Below are positions 2,180-13,309 of a stretch of DNA of 64,000 nt, piece after piece (position 1 is the stretch's first letter; the number at the start of each line of letters is the position of its first letter). The notes beneath the pieces were generated by a model. It was not told where the DNA came from. It was given only the letters and a program-made list of their open reading frames with translations, and searched no databases. Source of the DNA: Syntrophotalea carbinolica DSM 2380 (GTDB lineage: Bacteria; Desulfobacterota; Desulfuromonadia; Desulfuromonadales; Syntrophotaleaceae). The position numbers were made by a program, and so were the translations under genes. The stretch covers positions 1,364,001 through 1,428,000 of the forward strand of contig NC_007498.2 of the NCBI RefSeq assembly GCF_000012885.1, given 5' to 3'.

Positions 2180-2953
2180 TTACTTCTTCTTCCCGAAGTG
2201 GGATTGACGGTCTTTGGGAGCGACGAAAGCATGCAGGCGATGTTCCAGTACGCGAGGGTTTTCGCCTTCCAGTATCGAGCGCATCCCTTCAGCGATCAGG
2301 GTTTTATCCAGCACCTCATCGGAGGAGCGGTTTTTAAGTTTTCCGGACATGGGCATACAAATGATGTTGGCGATAACCGCCCCGTAAAAAGTGGTCAACA
2401 GGGCAACAGCCATGGCCGGTCCGATGGATGACGGGTCGTTCATGGTCTGGAGCATCTGCACCAGGCCGATAAGGGTGCCGATCATGCCCATGGCAGGTGC
2501 GTAGGTACCCATGGCCACCATGATTTCCGAGCCGCGATCATGACGCTCCTCGAGGTATTCGATTTCGCTGTCGAGCATCTCCTTGAGTTTGTCCGGTTCC
2601 TGGCCGTCCACCGCCATCTGCAGGCCTTTGAGAAAAAACGGGTCGTCCACCTCTTTGGTTACCGACTGGAGGGATAAAATTCCTTCCTTACGCGCCTTGC
2701 CGGCATAGTCGATGATCTGGGCAATGCGGTCGGTGCTTGAGAATCGCTGGGCGAAAAAAGCTTTTTTGATAATCGCAACGGTACCCATCATGTCCTTGAA
2801 GGTGTAATGCACCAGAGTGGTGCCGATGGTGCCGCCGATAACGATCATGGCCGAAGGAGGGTCGATGAAAAGGGTGATGCCTCCACCGGAAGAAATGGCC
2901 AGGATCATCAACAAAAAAGCGGCTGCGATGCCGGCGATAGTAGAGAAGTCCAT
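2180..2953 (-). CDS. motA: Flagellar stator protein MotA
   Basis: A 258 aa four-helix stator subunit of the short MotA/PomA type. The chosen start is the ATG at 2953 (MDFSTIAGIAAAF), preceded by GAGG at about 7 nt; the frame is open further upstream, but that part is hydrophilic, lacks a ribosome site and would cover the promoter. Visible landmarks are IDPPSAMIVIGGTIG in the first periplasmic/second helix region and YAPAMGMIGTLIGLVQML near the third helix. It is the first gene of the motA-motB-fliL-fliM run, with a sigma-54 promoter 78 bp upstream. In close relatives this gene normally sits beside flgE; here about 23 kb of accessory genes intervene. Confidence 0.96.
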   Translation of the reverse strand: MDFSTIAGIAAAFLLMILAISSGGGITLFIDPPSAMIVIGGTIGTTLVHYTFKDMMGTVAIIKKAFFAQRFSSTDRIAQIIDYAGKARKEGILSLQSVTKEVDDPFFLKGLQMAVDGQEPDKLKEMLDSEIEYLEERHDRGSEIMVAMGTYAPAMGMIGTLIGLVQMLQTMNDPSSIGPAMAVALLTTFYGAVIANIICMPMSGKLKNRSSDEVLDKTLIAEGMRSILEGENPRVLEHRLHAFVAPKDRQSHFGKKK

Positions 2954-3030
2954 AATATCCCTCAGTGAAAGGAGTGGGCTCATTCGCGTTATGGCCGGAG
3001 TGTATCTTCGGCCTTTGCCATGGCACTTTT

Positions 3031-3046
3031 CGCAAAGACCGTGCCA
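3031..3046 (-). promoter_or_regulatory. Sigma-54 promoter of motA-motB-fliL-fliM
   Basis: On the minus strand the sequence reads TGGCACGGTCTTTGCG, which has the invariant GG and GC exactly 10 nt apart and differs from TGGCACG-N4-TTGCA only at the last base. Transcription would begin about 12 nt past the GC, near 3019, leaving a leader of roughly 65 nt before motA. A sigma-54 activator of the FleQ/FlrA type is encoded at 50374-51786. Confidence 0.8.
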
Positions 3047-4033
3047 GAGCCGTGTCGTCACGTTGCGGACCTTTTGGGATGAACAAAAACGAAGGTTTAT
3101 TAATGGTTTAAAGGGATTTTTTATGGAGATGAAAAATCAGAGGTTAGCTCCGGACAGGAAAACCGCCCCGTATCAACAGGACTGTTTTTCCAATTGTCAG
3201 GGTTTTGACTTGTCGTTAGTCGTAATTTTATTCAGCCGTGACACACGGAAAAGTGTCTGTACATACTGAGCATGCAAAGCACGCGAAAACAATAACCTGC
3301 AGGACGCTGGGGAGGCTGTCTTGAAGGTTGTCTTGGGGGTAGACGTCACTCGAGTAAGATTCCATGAGGACACTGTGAAGGCATGGCGGATTGGTGGCAT
3401 GCTCACGGCGGGGTTCCCTCTCATGAAAAAAATAGCAGCATGTTCATTCGGCTCGGAAAGCTTGTCAGGGGAATGACAAGTGGGGAAGGGGGGCGCTGAG
3501 ATGCTATTCACCTCGTACCTCCGCCCTGGAGGCAGGGTTCCTAAACATCATACTGAACCTGGATTGTTCAAAACTTCATGTTCAAAATTCACGAGCTTCA
3601 AGACAAGGGAAACCCGTCCGGTACGTCAGGCGGGTTTTCTTGTCCCGCAGGGCATTTTCCCTTTCTTCGGAAGATGCGGTACGCAGGCCCAGAAGATCAG
3701 GCGTTGCCCTTCCAAACAACTGCCTGGTCCCTTCCACCATTTTTTGCTTTATAAAGGGCTTTGTCAGCATATTTTATAAGATCTTCGATCTCCGATAGTG
3801 CCAATAATGCTAGTGCCAGAGCAAAGGTGACTACCAGGACGGGGCTATTGATATTTGTTTATTTTTCTTTTGAATAACGCTCTTCTAAGGGATGTTGGTT
3901 GTTGAGTAGGTGTAATTCTCACTGAGCATGGTACCTTTATATAAAAAAGGTCATGACTCATTGATAGGTTTTGCACTTACTGGAAAGTTCAGCCGTGGTT
4001 TTTTAGGGCCAACGAGGGGAAAGGAGGCAGAGA
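3047..4033. other. Intergenic region, no convincing gene
   Basis: About 990 bp between the motA promoter and the peroxiredoxin gene. I see no reading frame with coding character or a ribosome site. It contains one hairpin of the accessory-block family (3602-3644), a small GACAC/GTGTC stem near 3240, and an AT-rich stretch around 3780-3960 that probably carries the peroxiredoxin promoter, although I could not place the -35/-10 boxes with confidence. Confidence 0.5.
3602..3644. terminator. Hairpin of the accessory-block family (terminator-like)
   Basis: The arm GACAAGGGAAACCCG (3602-3616) pairs with CGGGTTTTCTTGTC (3631-3644), with one bulge. It has the same CCCG.CCGG...TCAGGCGGG core as the hairpins at 4922, 7047 and 9974. 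No annotated gene ends directly before it, so it may be a leftover or mobile copy rather than a working terminator. Confidence 0.5.
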
Positions 4034-4756
4034 ATGACTGAAAAGTCAAAAGCAGGATGTGCCCGGTCAACCGGCGGTCTGGTTGGCCAGAAAGAACCTG
4101 GAGAACAGAGAGAGGAAATGCAGCCGACGAAGGAGGTGAAGAAGATGGGGATTGAGCTTGGGAAGGAAGCTCCTGATTTTACCGCCCCTGCTTATTACAG
4201 GGGGGAATTCACGTCTGTGAAACTTTCGGATTTTCTGGGGAAATGGGTCGTGTTGTGCCTTTACCCAGGCGACTTCACCTTTGTTTGAGCAACGGAAATA
4301 GCGGCGGTCGCCGCTAATTACAAGAAGTTTCAGGATCTCGGCGTCGAAGTGTTGACCATGAGCATCGATAGCGTTTTTGTTCACAAAATGTGGAACGACA
4401 AGGAATTGTCAAAAATGGTGGATGGGGGCGTTCCGTTCCATATGCTTTCGGATGCAGGGGGCAAGGTCGGGATGGCTTATGGTGCCTACAACGAGGATGC
4501 CGGCGTGGAAAATAGAGGCAGATTCATCATCGACCCGGATGGAGTAATTCAGGCCTATGAAGTCCTGAGTCCGCCCGTAGGCCGCAATGTTAGTGAGACC
4601 TTCCGGCAAATCCAGGCGTTTCAGCTCATCAGGGCGACAGAAGGTGCAGAGGCAACCCCTTCGGGCTGGAAACCTGGTAAATTGACCCTCAAGCCGGGAC
4701 CGGATCTCGTCGGAAAGGTTTGGGAAGTATGGAGTGTCGACATGGAGTCCGACTAG
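4034..4756 (+). CDS. prxU: Selenocysteine-containing peroxiredoxin (UGA at 4286-4288 read as Sec)
   Basis: A thioredoxin-fold peroxidase of the AhpC/Prx1 type that reduces peroxides with a catalytic selenocysteine. The frame is open on both sides of an in-frame TGA at 4286-4288, which sits exactly at the peroxidatic position: PGDFTFV-U-ATE, where cysteine homologues read PGDFTFVCPTE. A SECIS hairpin follows at once (4299-4316). Two starts have strong ribosome sites: ATG 4034 (AGGAGG, 6 nt; Sec is residue 85 of 240) and ATG 4145 (AAGGAGGTG; Sec is residue 48 of 203, close to the family norm). I give the longer form. The usual resolving Cys is absent: the C-terminal motif reads [10 protein letters not shown] instead of VCPxGWKPG. 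The only other cysteines are Cys75 (VVLCLYPGD) and Cys9 in the N-terminal extension, so resolution may use Cys9 or an outside thiol. Conventional annotation would split this gene at 4288. Confidence 0.92.
4299..4316 (+). promoter_or_regulatory. Bacterial SECIS element of prxU
   Basis: TAGCGGC and GCCGCTA form a perfect 7 bp stem closed by the tetraloop GGTC. The loop begins 17 nt after the UGA, within the 16-37 nt window usual for bacterial SECIS elements, and has guanines at its first two positions as SelB recognition requires. It lies inside the reading frame, as in all bacterial selenoprotein genes. Confidence 0.9.
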
Positions 4757-5420
4757 TCGAGAACTTCTGGAAGCTCATTCCGGACAAATTGTAACGACAG
4801 GTAGGTCGGCTAGCTTTATTTTTGGACGAGCCGTCACAATTGAAGAGGGTAGCCATGTTAAGGGTTGCCAAATGTGGTTGTGGGCCTTTCGTTTTTTATG
4901 ACATTGCACGAGTTCCAAGACCAAGATGCCCCGTCTGGTTCGCCAGGCGGGGTATCTTGCTTAGGCAGGGATTGCGATAATCTGGCGGTCACACCCCATC
5001 CCTTCCCGACAAAAAAACTGACATAACTTGTCAGACATAAGTAGTGTACGCTCTCCGCATAGGCATATAAATATTATAGAGAGGAGTGTCTAGAAAACTA
5101 AGGGCGATTCATGGTCGGCGATATTTCGAAAAAACTGAGGTGTGGTATGCCACATTAAGTGAAGGCTACACTTGTGTGTCATGCCACCTTTTCGTCCGTC
5201 TAAAAGGACCACAATGTCGATAGGCTAACGTAGAAAGAAAACCAAGAGCATTTTTAGGGTTTTGTCCAAGTTCTTAATCTTATTAGTCAATATAGACACA
5301 AAAGCTTGGATATTGTGTTGACGGGCATAAGGTTGAAGCCAATGGTGCGATAATTGAATAGGTTACGATTTGTTTGACTGTACAGGGACAATTCTTTTGC
5401 CAGAAATAAAAAGAAAGCTC
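4757..5420. other. Intergenic region with a structured patch
   Basis: No gene seen. Besides the terminator-like hairpin at 4922-4959 it contains a compact patch at 5139-5188: a palindrome TGTGG-TATG-CCACA (5141-5154) followed by AAGTG/CACTT (5157-5161 with 5169-5173), and outer arms GGTGTGGTAT and ATGCCACC that could pair with G-U pairs. It could be an operator or a folded leader for the downstream GGDEF gene; I recognise no known riboswitch class. Confidence 0.4.
4922..4959. terminator. Hairpin downstream of prxU, accessory-block family
   Basis: A 17 bp stem, CAAGATGCCCCGTCTGG with CCAGGCGGGGTATCTTG, closed by a TTCG tetraloop and complete if G-U pairs are allowed. It lies 165 bp after the prxU stop. 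There is no long T-run, so it could be a terminator of either strand or an mRNA-end stabiliser. The core matches the copies at 3602, 7047 and 9974. Confidence 0.6.
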
Positions 5421-6716
5421 ATGGATAATATCGACTATAAGGAATGTGAGGTTTTTTCACCCTCCTCATCTGATACGCGCTTCAAGATCGAATTAAACAA
5501 AGTTCCTATTGAATGGGATTTGGAAAACGGGAGTTTTACTTTTTTTGGGCTTGATTCGGCTCTTTTCTGGACAGACCCCTCTCTGGTTCGGGTTTTTGCG
5601 CCGCTTGCTGACGAGGTTGGCAGGGATCTCTTCCGGCTACTTGTGGCTCATTCATCCAGCCTGGGCACGAAAGAAGATTATCACTCGATGATAGGAAGTC
5701 TGGGTGATGGTTTTGCCGAGGGTTTTTTGGCCTGGGGAAAGGCGGTCTCCACGGCGGGTTGGGGTGTCTTTGAGATGCCCACATATGACCCGGTTGCCAA
5801 GGTAGCAACAGTGATTGTTAGAAACCCGGTTGAATTAAAAATCCAACGGAACCTACCCCCAGAAAAACGCTGGGGCTGTCCATCTTTGCAAGGCAAGATT
5901 ATTGGGATATTCAACCATGCGTTCAGCGAACACTGCTGGGCAGATGACATCTGTTATTACGATGCGGATACTCCCTACGTCGTTTATCAAATCTACGGTT
6001 CTAAAAAAACTATTTCAGAGGAATTAAAAAATTTACGAAAGGAGCGAATGCTCTCTAGGGAGCGCGCCTTAACTTGTGAAGTAGAACGCAAAACTGAGGA
6101 ACTCAGGCGGTCTAAGGAAGCCCTCGAGGACTATTCAAGGACATTGGAAGAGAAAGTTGCAGCCCGTACCTCCGAGCTTGAAACGATACTTGGGTTGCTT
6201 ATGGCGGAAAAAGAAAAATTCAAGTCCCTAGCTGAAATCGATCCCCTGACCGGACTCTACAACCGACGTGCATTCTTCGGTCTTAGCGGGGAAATCTTAA
6301 AAAAGTATAGCGAGCTAGACCGGCCTATTACGGTCATCATGCTGGACGTTGATTCCTTTAAACAAATCAACGATGTCTATGGCCATTCGGTGGGAGACCA
6401 GGTGCTGGTAGCCCTGTCAGATCTGATAAAAAAAACATTCAGGGGGTCGGATGTCATCGGTCGTATTGGTGGTGAAGAGTTTGCCATTTTATGCCCCAAT
6501 TCCGATTTTGTAAAAGATCGGGCGCCGTTAGAAAACCTGAGAAAAGAGATCGAGGGGTTTCAAATTTCAGCTGAAGGCCATGAAATCAAGGTTACAGTCA
6601 GTATCGGTGCAACTACCGGCAAGAAAACTGACGACCTGGGCGCACTTATCAAACAAGCAGACAAGATGTTGTACAGGGCCAAGGAGTCTGGGCGAAATTG
6701 CATTGTGTCCTCTTAG
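5421..6716 (+). CDS. Diguanylate cyclase with V4R-like sensor domain
   Basis: A 431 aa cytoplasmic protein. Residues 1 to about 205 form a sensor domain whose closing pattern (WGCPSLQGKIIGIFNHAF followed by WADDICYYDADTPYVVYQIY) resembles the V4R/4-vinyl-reductase ligand-binding domain; this is my inference. A coiled coil (about 210-285) links it to a GGDEF domain with an active GGEEF signature (RIGGEEFAIL) and an inhibitory I-site RGSD five residues before it, so c-di-GMP synthesis with product feedback is expected. The ATG at 5421 follows AAAGAAAG; an in-frame TTG at 5370 would add 17 residues but has no better ribosome site. It stands alone and is followed by a hairpin terminator at 6767. 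The ligand is unknown. Confidence 0.85.
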   Translation: MDNIDYKECEVFSPSSSDTRFKIELNKVPIEWDLENGSFTFFGLDSALFWTDPSLVRVFAPLADEVGRDLFRLLVAHSSSLGTKEDYHSMIGSLGDGFAEGFLAWGKAVSTAGWGVFEMPTYDPVAKVATVIVRNPVELKIQRNLPPEKRWGCPSLQGKIIGIFNHAFSEHCWADDICYYDADTPYVVYQIYGSKKTISEELKNLRKERMLSRERALTCEVERKTEELRRSKEALEDYSRTLEEKVAARTSELETILGLLMAEKEKFKSLAEIDPLTGLYNRRAFFGLSGEILKKYSELDRPITVIMLDVDSFKQINDVYGHSVGDQVLVALSDLIKKTFRGSDVIGRIGGEEFAILCPNSDFVKDRAPLENLRKEIEGFQISAEGHEIKVTVSIGATTGKKTDDLGALIKQADKMLYRAKESGRNCIVSS

Positions 6717-7594: not shown

Positions 7595-9859
<2,265 letters not shown>

Positions 9860-10116: not shown

Positions 10117-12738
10117 TCAAAATGCAAAGTAGAAGCGTAGCCAGGCACTATGCGAGGTGGTTTCGTCTCCGAATTCTCCGCCGTAAGATAGCTCCGAGGA
10201 AAGTTGCTCTTTGCTGAATCGCACCGAGGCGGAAACCGTACCGGCAACATCGTCCTGCTCTGTTTTTACCGTCACCGGGCCACTGCCCGCTACCGATTGA
10301 TTCACGCTCAGGTCGCTGTCGGTCAGGAGACAGCGTACCCCGGCCATCAGTGACGGAGCCATTTCCACTTCTCCGATCTGCATGCGGGTCAACCAACGTA
10401 GTGATGCCAGGGCGCGTACCTGATGTTCATCCATTGCAGAGCTGTGTACGTCCCATCCGGAATCATCAGCGTCGGTGGTGAAGCTGTCGGAATGCAACCA
10501 CAGGTATTCGATGCCGGCTTCCGGTAAAAATATCTGGGTTCCGACGGGAATAAGGTAACCTCCAAGCAACGAGGTGTGTGCTCCGTAGCTATTGTAGTCG
10601 GCGTTTTCTCTAAGTTCGAGGTTAATGCCGGTCAGCCCTTCGTAATCATGCCAACCATAAAACCCGCCCAGTTGGCCGCGCCAGGTCCAATGGCCCCGGT
10701 TTCCCATCGACTGCACCCCTAAGGAGAGCACTTCCTGGTCTTCTCCGTCGCCGCTATAGCCGTTGCCTGTAAAATCGAGTCCGGCATGGGTGTACCCGAG
10801 ATACATACCGGAGAGGGTGGATCCGGCCCGGTGTTCGATACCGGTGACGAAGCCAACCAGATCGGCATCGTAGCCGGCGGGGGACGCATCTTTGTCGATG
10901 TTGGCATAATAGGGGGTGAAAAAGACGTTGTACGGAGCTAACCGATATCCTCCGGTGGCATCGTTGGCAACCATAAGAGAATCTGCGTACGGTCCGGGTG
11001 TACGGTCGGTCAATTGATATTTTAAAAATCCGAGGGCGATACGTTGTCCGGCCAGATCGGAGGACAGGGTCACCGCATGCCGTAGCAGGTCCATGGCTTC
11101 CAATTGCGGAGAGGCTCCGGGACTATAGCCCAAGGATACCGTATCATCGGTGCTTGTGGTGGTCGACTGATCATGATAAAGGACGACGACATCGGGGTTA
11201 AGCGCGGAAGTCAAACCACCGAAGGAGCCGGATACCGTTCCGCCGTCGTCGGTATCAAAAATCCGGTATTCGGTGTTCATTTGGGGCGCGCTGCCGGCCG
11301 ATGTTACGCTGAGCATCGCATCGTTCAGGACCAATGTGGCCCCCCCTGCCACATACAGGGAGCCGACGCTTGGATCGGCATCCAGATTGAGATTATAACT
11401 ATCGATCAGCGATACGGACCCGGACATTACCGCAACCTCATAAGCTCTGCTTGCCCCGTTGGTCCGTATAATGCCGGTATTGGTCAATGATCCGCTGCCA
11501 TCCATAACAATGCCGATGGCCACAGAGGTTAAAGAATCCGAAGCCGTGGCGGTCGCCGTAATGTTGCCGCTATTGAATACGTCGCCTCCATCGGTAACGA
11601 TGCCGCCGGCCAAGGCGTGAGCCTCCCCGAAGATATCGGAAAAGGGGGCTGTCCCTGCGCCGCTACCGTAGGTGGCCGTCGTTATGATATCGCCGGTATT
11701 GGTCACGTCCCCGGCGGCATTCAGGCCGATCGCCAAAGCATAGGGCTCCGAAGAGGTTGCATTGGCAGTTCCACCGGTAGCGGTAACATTAATCGTGCCG
11801 CTGTTAGTGATATCGTTATCCGTGTCAATGCCGAAGCCATAGGCGGAGGCGTAGGCACCATCGGCGGCGGCGGAAGTTGATACTCCTCCAGTGGAGGTTA
11901 CGGTGATATCCCCTTGGTTGGTCACGGCGCCTCTACTGGAAATACCGAAAGCTTCGCTTTCCGTTTCAGCGTAGGTGTCGGCAGTTGCGGTTCCGCCTAC
12001 GGCGGCCACGGTGATTGATCCGTCATTGGTCACGGTGCCATAGGAACGGATGCCATACCCGTCGGCGTCGGCGTCTATAGAGGCATCGTCGGTTGCGGTT
12101 CCTCCGGTAGTGGTTACGGTAATGGCCCCGGAGTTGATCACGTTATCACGCGAATAGATGCCAAAAGTATCGGTATCGGCATCGTCACCGGCTATTGCAG
12201 TTCCACCGGTAGCAATTACAGTGAGTGCCCCTCCGTTGGTTACGGGGCCTAAGGAGTAAATGCCATAGGCTTCGACGTTTGAATCGGCCCCGGAGGAGGC
12301 CGTGGCGGTCCCACCGGTGGCGGTCACGTTAATGGCCCCGTTGTTGGTCACGGCTGCTGCGGCAAAAATTCCGTAAACTTCGTTTCCGGCTGCGGCTCCT
12401 GCGAGGGCCGTTGCCGTTCCGCCCATAGCGGTTATGCTGATATTTCCAAAATTCTGAATTTCTGTCGCGCTATTGGAATAAATACCGTAAGCATTGAATG
12501 AAACATCCTCGAAGCTTCCCGAGCCATCACCGTAGACTGTGAGTGAGTAGTTGTCGTAATTGATAAACGGTGAAACGGCCAGGGAGGCATCAATTCCATA
12601 GAAATCTTCACCGGGACTCAGGGTTTCGTTAACGACGAAATCCGCTGCCGCAGCCGGAGAAACGATTCCCCATAGCAGCCCGACCAGAAGTCCGCAAACC
12701 CCCAAAAACATACGCATCTTTTCCGGAAAAAATAGCAT
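10117..12738 (-). CDS. Autotransporter (type V secretion) with repeat passenger
   Basis: An 873 aa protein with a Sec signal peptide (residues 1 to about 33, ending in SPAAAA), a Gly/Thr/Ala/Asn-rich passenger made of imperfect repeats of about 35 residues (VTNSGAITVTATGGTATA-type, then YGIYS), and a C-terminal beta-barrel of about 270 residues ending in aromatic Phe (LRFYFAF), as required for outer-membrane insertion. The passenger should fold as a beta-helix on the cell surface or be released; no catalytic motif is visible, so adhesin or surface-layer roles are guesses. The ATG at 12738 follows AAGGAG; a GTG six bases upstream is less well placed. It is monocistronic. Confidence 0.88.
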   Translation of the reverse strand: MLFFPEKMRMFLGVCGLLVGLLWGIVSPAAAADFVVNETLSPGEDFYGIDASLAVSPFINYDNYSLTVYGDGSGSFEDVSFNAYGIYSNSATEIQNFGNISITAMGGTATALAGAAAGNEVYGIFAAAAVTNNGAINVTATGGTATASSGADSNVEAYGIYSLGPVTNGGALTVIATGGTAIAGDDADTDTFGIYSRDNVINSGAITVTTTGGTATDDASIDADADGYGIRSYGTVTNDGSITVAAVGGTATADTYAETESEAFGISSRGAVTNQGDITVTSTGGVSTSAAADGAYASAYGFGIDTDNDITNSGTINVTATGGTANATSSEPYALAIGLNAAGDVTNTGDIITTATYGSGAGTAPFSDIFGEAHALAGGIVTDGGDVFNSGNITATATASDSLTSVAIGIVMDGSGSLTNTGIIRTNGASRAYEVAVMSGSVSLIDSYNLNLDADPSVGSLYVAGGATLVLNDAMLSVTSAGSAPQMNTEYRIFDTDDGGTVSGSFGGLTSALNPDVVVLYHDQSTTTSTDDTVSLGYSPGASPQLEAMDLLRHAVTLSSDLAGQRIALGFLKYQLTDRTPGPYADSLMVANDATGGYRLAPYNVFFTPYYANIDKDASPAGYDADLVGFVTGIEHRAGSTLSGMYLGYTHAGLDFTGNGYSGDGEDQEVLSLGVQSMGNRGHWTWRGQLGGFYGWHDYEGLTGINLELRENADYNSYGAHTSLLGGYLIPVGTQIFLPEAGIEYLWLHSDSFTTDADDSGWDVHSSAMDEHQVRALASLRWLTRMQIGEVEMAPSLMAGVRCLLTDSDLSVNQSVAGSGPVTVKTEQDDVAGTVSASVRFSKEQLSSELSYGGEFGDETTSHSAWLRFYFAF
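11720..12465 (-). repeat. Passenger repeats of the autotransporter
   Basis: Seven consecutive units carrying the motif (T/V/M)GG(T/V)-A/S-T/N-A separated by roughly 33-38 codons, each followed by a variable acidic/Ala-rich stretch and a YGI or FGI motif. Units differ at many third positions, so they are old repeats rather than recent tandem copies. Confidence 0.75.
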
Positions 12739-13309
12739 AAACACTCCTTTCCTCCGTCATGGACATGAATATCGAATTTAACATCCTTGGTAACAGCTTA
12801 TCAGATAAAAATAACCGAACAACAATCCGGACATTCCTCCGGAAAAAAGACGGATCTACCTGATACGAGCGGTTGTTTTGCTTAAAAATCAGGATCTTTT
12901 CGGACTCTATTCCCCATTAACAGCCTATTTTATTCAGAACTTACTTCCTGGATATTTTGCTGACCACACGACAGCCTTAGGTCGAGAGTCCCCGCGAAAT
13001 CAGCGCCGACTCGGACCAGACTGAATTTGCGGTTCCATATGCTATAGTTTTTCAAACCGTGAGTTTTTACAAAGGGACATAGCCACTAAAATCCGGAGAG
13101 GCATTTAACATGTGACCTCGCTCTATGCATGACTCGAACGGTGTAGGTCCGATCCGTTTACGCATCGCTCATTGCTGAGCCACGGCGATATGTTTTGCCG
13201 GGCGGCAGATTTGAAACACTGGGAAAATCGATAAATCCTGGAGAGAACGGAACTCTTAGGCTTACACGCTGATTCGGGCTGTTTAGCACGCAGGGAGGTG
13301 GCTTTTAAG
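12739..13309. other. Intergenic region between divergent genes
   Basis: About 570 bp between the autotransporter and the REC-GAF-GGDEF gene. It must contain both promoters. I found no reading frame with a ribosome site, no convincing sigma-54 element and no riboswitch I recognise. Confidence 0.5.

Follow-up and report, generated by a model that had tools for sequence, protein, structure and literature searches.

Does a stop codon inside an otherwise intact peroxiredoxin frame mark a broken gene or a selenoprotein? The question arises in Syntrophotalea carbinolica DSM 2380, within a 64,000-nucleotide stretch of DNA analyzed as a whole (the window), where a plus-strand open frame is interrupted solely by a TGA at 4286 to 4288. 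A plain open reading frame (ORF) scan with translation table 11 reports two pieces here, one of 84 aa and one of 135 aa that starts at GTG. On the basis of sequence comparisons and a predicted structure, we conclude with a probability of roughly 0.95 that the gene encodes a functional selenocysteine (Sec)-containing peroxiredoxin of the AhpC/Prx1 type (prxU), and that the residue at the TGA is very probably Sec. The features on which the argument draws are collected in Table 1.

Table 1. Features of the prxU locus (window positions) and selenocysteine genes of the same genome (genome positions, C1)
Feature	Position	Strand	Basis or score
Shine-Dalgarno-like AGGAGG before ATG 4034	4022..4027	+	Sequence
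prxU CDS, 240 residues and TAG, in-frame TGA read as Sec	4034..4756	+	Frame, translation, NF040737, AhpC-TSA
Cys9 codon TGT, N-terminal extension, proposed relocated resolving thiol	4058..4060	+	Sequence; close members
Cys75 codon TGC, ten residues before Sec85	4256..4258	+	Sequence; 33/33 close members
TGA codon of Sec85 (very probable), peroxidatic residue	4286..4288	+	Alignment to solved structures; 33/33 close members
SECIS hairpin, arms 4299-4305 and 4310-4316, loop GGTC 4306-4309	4299..4316	+	Folding, conserved pairing
Thr208 codon ACC, at the AhpC/Prx1 C-terminal resolving Cys site	4655..4657	+	Aligned with the C of EVCPAGW
Inverted repeat 3' of prxU, possible terminator hairpin	4929..4952	+	By eye
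selA	C1:968726-970090		638.9 bits
selD (L091)	G000:C1:972143-973093		364.2 bits; one internal TGA
tRNA-Sec	C1:981495-981588		79.2 bits; ARAGORN anticodon tca (UCA)
selB, beside tRNA-Sec	C1:981831-983720		374.9 bits

Identity of the interrupted gene

Read through the TGA, the window protein, of about 26 kDa, matched the NCBIfam model NF040737 (peroxi_PrxU) with 399.7 bits against a cut-off of 270, from residue 7 to residue 237 and from position 2 to position 233 of the 233-position profile. Pfam searches returned AhpC-TSA (130.1 bits), Redoxin (65.1 bits), and 1-cysPrx_C (25.1 bits). The AhpC model TIGR03137 scored 183.6 bits, under its cut-off of 272, and the Prx-SUH model (NF045827) reached only 18.9 of the 298 bits that its cut-off requires. 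In the alignment, residue 85, in the context PGDFTFV-U-ATE, falls on the peroxidatic Cys (DFTFVCPTE) of peroxiredoxins with solved structures, and the protein thus presents the PrxU trait, namely, a TGA-encoded peroxidatic residue within a TxxU motif. The structure was predicted with AlphaFold2 from 47 homologues, with a mean pLDDT of 83.5 and values under 50 for residues 1 to 12 and 14 to 35. The resulting model has the Prx1/AhpC fold over residues 37 to 234 and superposed on Prx1/AhpC structures with Z scores of up to 24.8 (rmsd, 1.7; 177 aligned residues).

A previous sequence-only reading of this DNA had placed the TGA exactly at the position of the peroxidatic Cys, with the frame continuing beyond it, and the alignment agrees on both points. 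The same reading held that standard gene callers would miss the gene. The plain scan does split it, but the claim is too strong, as the match to NF040737 lies far above the cut-off.

Selenocysteine genes in the genome

The genome (3,665,893 bases in one contig; completeness, 100) carries tRNA-Sec, selA, selB, and selD, all scoring above their own family cut-offs. The absence of selB or selC had been put forward as a refutation of the Sec assignment; a search for selA, selB, selC, and selD located all four. Since selD contains an internal TGA, the SelD protein of this genome may itself be a selenoprotein.

Conservation of the TGA and selection on the protein

Some match to the window protein was found in 48 of the 58 related genomes searched, and six related genomes (its own included) harbor a member at 57 to 100% identity, each with one internal TGA. 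Within the genus, only one of the five other genomes, G004 among G001 to G005, has prxU. The gene is thus patchy among close relatives, by either loss or transfer. A wider contig search confirmed 43 loci which, by record title, belong to several phyla or groups (Deltaproteobacteria, Nitrospirae, Krumholzibacteriota, Cloacimonadota, Delongbacteria, Syntrophomonadaceae, and others). From the related-genome and contig searches, we defined as close members the 33 sequences with at least 56% identity, a set chosen by similarity that includes the window gene. The codon for residue 85 was covered in 72 rows, being TGA in these 33 and TGC or TGT in the 39 others, which have at most 43% identity. The proposal that the assignment would fail if homologues in relatives ended at the UGA found no support, as the frame reads on in all 33 close members. 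Most of them also have an AGGAGG-like stretch preceding the start.

Among 395 phylum genomes sampled, NF040737 had matches in 358 at an E value of 0.001, and in 130 the match was above the cut-off. From among the phylum matches listed, 115 further regions were added, leaving out the genome's own row, the fragment G437:C337, and G242:C47. Once five duplicates and L223b, a different peroxiredoxin, were removed, the 181 resulting hits gave 175 distinct members from among the matches listed, the window gene included. At the catalytic position, 164 of them have TGA and 11 have Cys. Seven of the 175 score under the NF040737 cut-off (L160b and L162 to L167; six Sec, one Cys). The 11 Cys members share 42 to 60% identity with the window protein; thus, Cys forms exist inside the wider PrxU family. 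Two further features were noted in this set. Two prxU-like genes share a contig in two cases, 92 bases apart in L160 (G342:C11:100667-101990) and about 4.7 kb apart in L196 (G196:C46:53697-59722). Moreover, in L180 and L167, the N-terminal Cys motif is preceded by what looks by eye like a signal peptide, so some PrxU forms may be exported.

Compared codon by codon with the same-genus copy, the gene has a dN/dS of 0.048 upstream of the TGA (47 codons) and 0.036 downstream of it (120 codons). For four further pairs, some with saturated dS, values after the TGA ranged from 0.032 to 0.133, and those before it from 0.062 to 0.124 in three. By these codon comparisons, the protein downstream of the TGA is under purifying selection.

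A SECIS hairpin that accompanies Sec use

Downstream of the TGA, a hairpin of seven pairs folds with an MFE of -12.1 kcal/mol. Its stem starts 10 nt and its loop 17 nt after the UGA. Hence, of the 7-bp stem, GGTC loop, and 17-nt distance described in the sequence-only reading, the stem and loop stand, whereas the distance is right for the loop but not for the stem. The bSECIS model, as given in the accessible text of PMC13188914, has a loop of 3 to 9 nt with a G within its first two positions, a stem of 4 to 16 bp, a UGA-to-loop distance of 16 to 37 nt, and an MFE of -7.5 kcal/mol or lower. The window hairpin lies within every one of these ranges (loop of 4 nt, GGUC; 7 bp; 17 nt; -12.1 kcal/mol). 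A fold against a bacterial SECIS model, suggested earlier as a check, thus came out in favor of the hairpin. An Rfam scan of 3600 to 5400 with E values of up to 1 matched no relevant family to it, the sole match in that interval being an lncRNA family far under its gathering score.

Taken alone, the window hairpin stands out only moderately (z = -1.73), with 10 of 200 shuffles giving as good a fold. Across the 164 Sec homologues, 1080 of the 1148 cells of the seven pairs are formed, against 831.8 ± 12.4 (maximum, 867) when synonymous codons were shuffled 500 times with the protein left unchanged. All seven pairs are intact in 113 of the 164, versus 8.7% in the shuffles. Omitting the six below-cut-off Sec members left 1038 of 1106 pairs, the shuffles being those of the full set alone. 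Sec members have the loops AGTT (99), GGTC (60), GATA (3), and GGTT (2). Consequently, the first and last loop bases covary as A-U or G-C, as expected from the N1-N2 pair of the model described in the accessible text of PMC13188914. Among the 11 Cys homologues, 46 of 77 pairs are formed (shuffles, 39.9 ± 2.4; maximum, 46), a seven-pair hairpin occurs in none, and nine different loops are found. From the pairing excess in Sec members and the loss of pairs in Cys homologues, these alignments indicate that the hairpin goes with Sec use, while a faint pairing excess remains in the Cys homologues. Together with the Sec genes of the genome and the relatives that read through the TGA, the agreement with the bSECIS model (as far as the accessible text of PMC13188914 describes it) supports the earlier reading of the gene as a Sec peroxiredoxin.

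Distribution of cysteines and the resolving thiol

The canonical C-terminal resolving Cys (EVCPAGW) is absent from the window protein, which reads EATPSGW at this site, and from all 33 close members (0/33); Cys75 is present in every one of them. An N-terminal Cys, mostly in a GCxRPTGG-like motif followed by a variable linker, occurs in all 32 close members whose N-terminus could be read. For the wider set, this residue was called by a motif rule, with three calls corrected by eye and two rows left unassigned. The C-terminal Cys was absent in 127 and kept in 6 of the 133 members with an N-terminal Cys, compared with 21 and 19, respectively, of the 40 members without it (Fisher p = 1e-9). Excluding the seven below-cut-off members gave 126, 6, 16, and 18 (Fisher p = 3e-10). 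The 21 members lacking both cysteines have Cys210 (six members, five of them under the NF040737 cut-off), Cys196 and Cys230 (11 members), or no Cys besides Sec (four members forming one clade: L136, L146, L150, and L153). Thus, 144 of the 148 classified members without the C-terminal Cys have an alternative one (127 N-terminal, 6 Cys210, and 11 Cys196/Cys230). The four Cys-free proteins are natural candidates for a 1-Sec enzyme.

The tree (LG+G4, quick search, trait columns masked) requires at least four changes for the N-terminal Cys and eight for the C-terminal Cys. Its supported branches offer 2 to 3 independent pairs, of which on average 1.1 to 1.6 agree with the expectation and 0.0 contradict it; with so few pairs, the tree-based link cannot reach significance, although its direction is as expected. 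Across members, the association between the N-terminal Cys and the loss of the C-terminal Cys is suggestive but short of proof.

These patterns lead us to propose, at a little short of even odds, that the PrxU family moved its resolving thiol several times, mostly from the C-terminal site to an N-terminal extension (GCxRPTGG-like motif, linker, Prx domain). Smaller branches would then use Cys210 or the Cys196/Cys230 pair, with one clade of four being Cys-free. For the window lineage, Cys9 is the foremost candidate for the relocated thiol, since Thr208 replaces the usual C-terminal resolving Cys; we regard this role as tentative, nearly as probable as not. Against Cys9 stand the N-terminal arm, modeled without confidence (pLDDT under 50 at residues 1 to 12 and 14 to 35), the six members that keep both cysteines, the four that are Cys-free, and Cys75, which is nearly invariant too.

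Alternative explanations

One alternative denies Sec altogether and takes the TGA as a nonsense mutation, so that the gene would be a pseudogene or would yield two short proteins made separately. The two short ORFs of the table 11 scan speak for it. However, the other 32 close members, which their record titles assign to several phyla, all have a TGA at the same codon, the protein past it is under purifying selection, the SECIS hairpin is conserved, and the set of Sec genes is complete. This explanation is therefore rejected as highly improbable.

With Sec inserted, the resolving step may still be read in other ways. The strongest rival to a moved resolving thiol is a 1-Cys-type (1-Sec) peroxidase, in which an outside thiol or redoxin would resolve Sec85 and Cys9 would serve otherwise, e.g., in partner docking. 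The family apparently can manage without Cys, given the four-member clade with Sec alone, and the match to Pfam 1-cysPrx_C points the same way; this domain occurs outside 1-Cys enzymes too. The N-terminal Cys in all close members with a readable N-terminus and the alternative Cys in nearly all classified members missing the C-terminal one speak against it, and we consider it possible but doubtful. Cys75 as the resolving thiol is unlikely. This residue is present in all close members and in 132 of the 133 members with an N-terminal Cys, yet its occurrence does not follow the loss of the C-terminal Cys, as 9 of the 19 short members keeping the latter also have Cys75. Furthermore, no classified member combines Cys75 with the lack of both terminal cysteines; the two rows that seem to do so, L118 and L052, are those in which the N-terminus could not be read. 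L174 carries the N-terminal Cys but neither Cys75 nor the C-terminal one.

Proposed mechanism

In the reading that we favor, SelB and the UCA-anticodon Sec-tRNA would decode the UGA as selenocysteine, directed by the hairpin with its loop 17 nt downstream, and the product would be a peroxidase of the Prx1/AhpC fold. The selenolate of Sec85, in the PxxxTxxU pocket, would attack H2O2 or organic hydroperoxides and become a selenenic acid, which a thiol (in the window lineage, most likely that of Cys9 in the N-terminal extension) would convert to a selenenyl sulfide. A thioredoxin-type donor would then reduce the latter. Sec insertion itself, the activity as a peroxidase, the part played by Cys9, and the source of electrons are all steps that we infer.

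Genomic context of prxU

On one flank, prxU is bordered by other-strand genes that appear MotA- and MotB-like by eye (2180 to 3061 and 1434 to 2177) and on the other by a gene for a GGDEF protein (5370 to 6716). A KatG-type peroxidase gene (katG) lies in the window at 7607 to 9859. A promoter scan of 3700 to 5100 found no plus-strand sites and one minus-strand site, against a shuffled mean of 1.3, and the terminator scan did not report the inverted repeat found by eye 3' of the gene. Further along the window, an 875-aa minus-strand ORF (10117 to 12744) has by eye many similar short repeats (xVTATGGTA-like) and an autotransporter-barrel-like C-terminal part.

Searching the genome with the AhpC model returned two matches, both under the cut-off: the prxU locus at 178.2 bits and a weak one at 30.2 bits. 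Oxidative-stress genes lie within about 2.5 kb (less at contig ends or short flanks) in 36 of the 175 members, counted without a background control. By the Pfam matches of cluster representatives, these neighbors include Fur-type regulators (12 loci), rubrerythrin (9), cytochrome c peroxidase (7), catalase (7), desulfoferrodoxin (7), and KatG (6). We count these neighbors, along with katG in the window, in favor of a functional PrxU.

Relation to known peroxiredoxins

The PrxU family of NF040737 is described as a thioredoxin-dependent peroxiredoxin. The window protein matches it over its whole length, with Sec at the peroxidatic position in TxxU, and no difference separating the gene from this model was found. 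The name PrxU probably goes back to the enzyme of Eubacterium acidaminophilum (Sohling et al. 2001). Typical 2-Cys peroxiredoxins (AhpC TIGR03137 and eukaryotic Prx1-4) have the fold and the active-site stretch in common with the window protein. Unlike them, the latter has Sec for the peroxidatic Cys, Thr208 for the resolving Cys, and an extension with an N-terminal Cys, and it falls below the AhpC cut-off. Prx-SUH (NF045827) and the Prx-like UxxC thiol:disulfide oxidoreductases are also Sec proteins of related fold, but according to the accessible text of PMC13188914 they have CxxU or UxxC motifs, whereas the window protein has TxxU.

In the accessible text of PMC1794560, 12 bacterial Sec peroxiredoxins with TxxU are listed, including those of Syntrophus aciditrophicus and Geobacter metallireducens, and five Cys-to-Sec events are inferred for Sec peroxiredoxins; that of PMC1088965 reports 43 in Sargasso Sea data. 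The available parts of PMC9312934 and PMC13188914 place these proteins above families that are "predicted," citing Sohling et al. 2001. Sec peroxiredoxins with TxxU have thus long been known, and the window gene is another member of the PrxU family, an enzyme type that other anaerobes are known to have. The sequence-only reading was right that the family was established, in view of NF040737 and these published counts, and went too far in calling the assignment new from sequence, as a dedicated NCBIfam equivalog model exists. In the main text of the strain's genome paper (PMC3543383), a word search found selen-, peroxi-, catalase, and oxidative stress unmentioned. Our literature search was limited and lacked most subscription papers. 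Within it, in the passages and titles covered, no description of a relocated resolving Cys or of a spread of its positions in PrxU was found, and with this partial coverage, the pattern is not claimed to be unpublished. By title, the same search returned glutathione peroxidases only for an N-terminal resolving position, the Sulfobacillus stress response only for PrxU and selenocysteine, and nothing on point for PGAP and selenoproteins.

Implications for the organism and the family

A gene split by a plain ORF scan can now be settled as prxU. Judging from its sequence, the sole full-length AhpC-type peroxidase that the AhpC model found in this genome would depend on selenium. At the family level, the SECIS hairpin is retained by Sec users, whereas most of it has disappeared from the Cys homologues. 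The site of the resolving thiol points to a testable change of catalytic design in a family whose model scores above its cut-off in about a third of the phylum genomes sampled (130/395). If the proposal of a moved resolving thiol is true, PrxU would use a catalytic couple of Sec and an N-terminal Cys, unlike the AhpC type.
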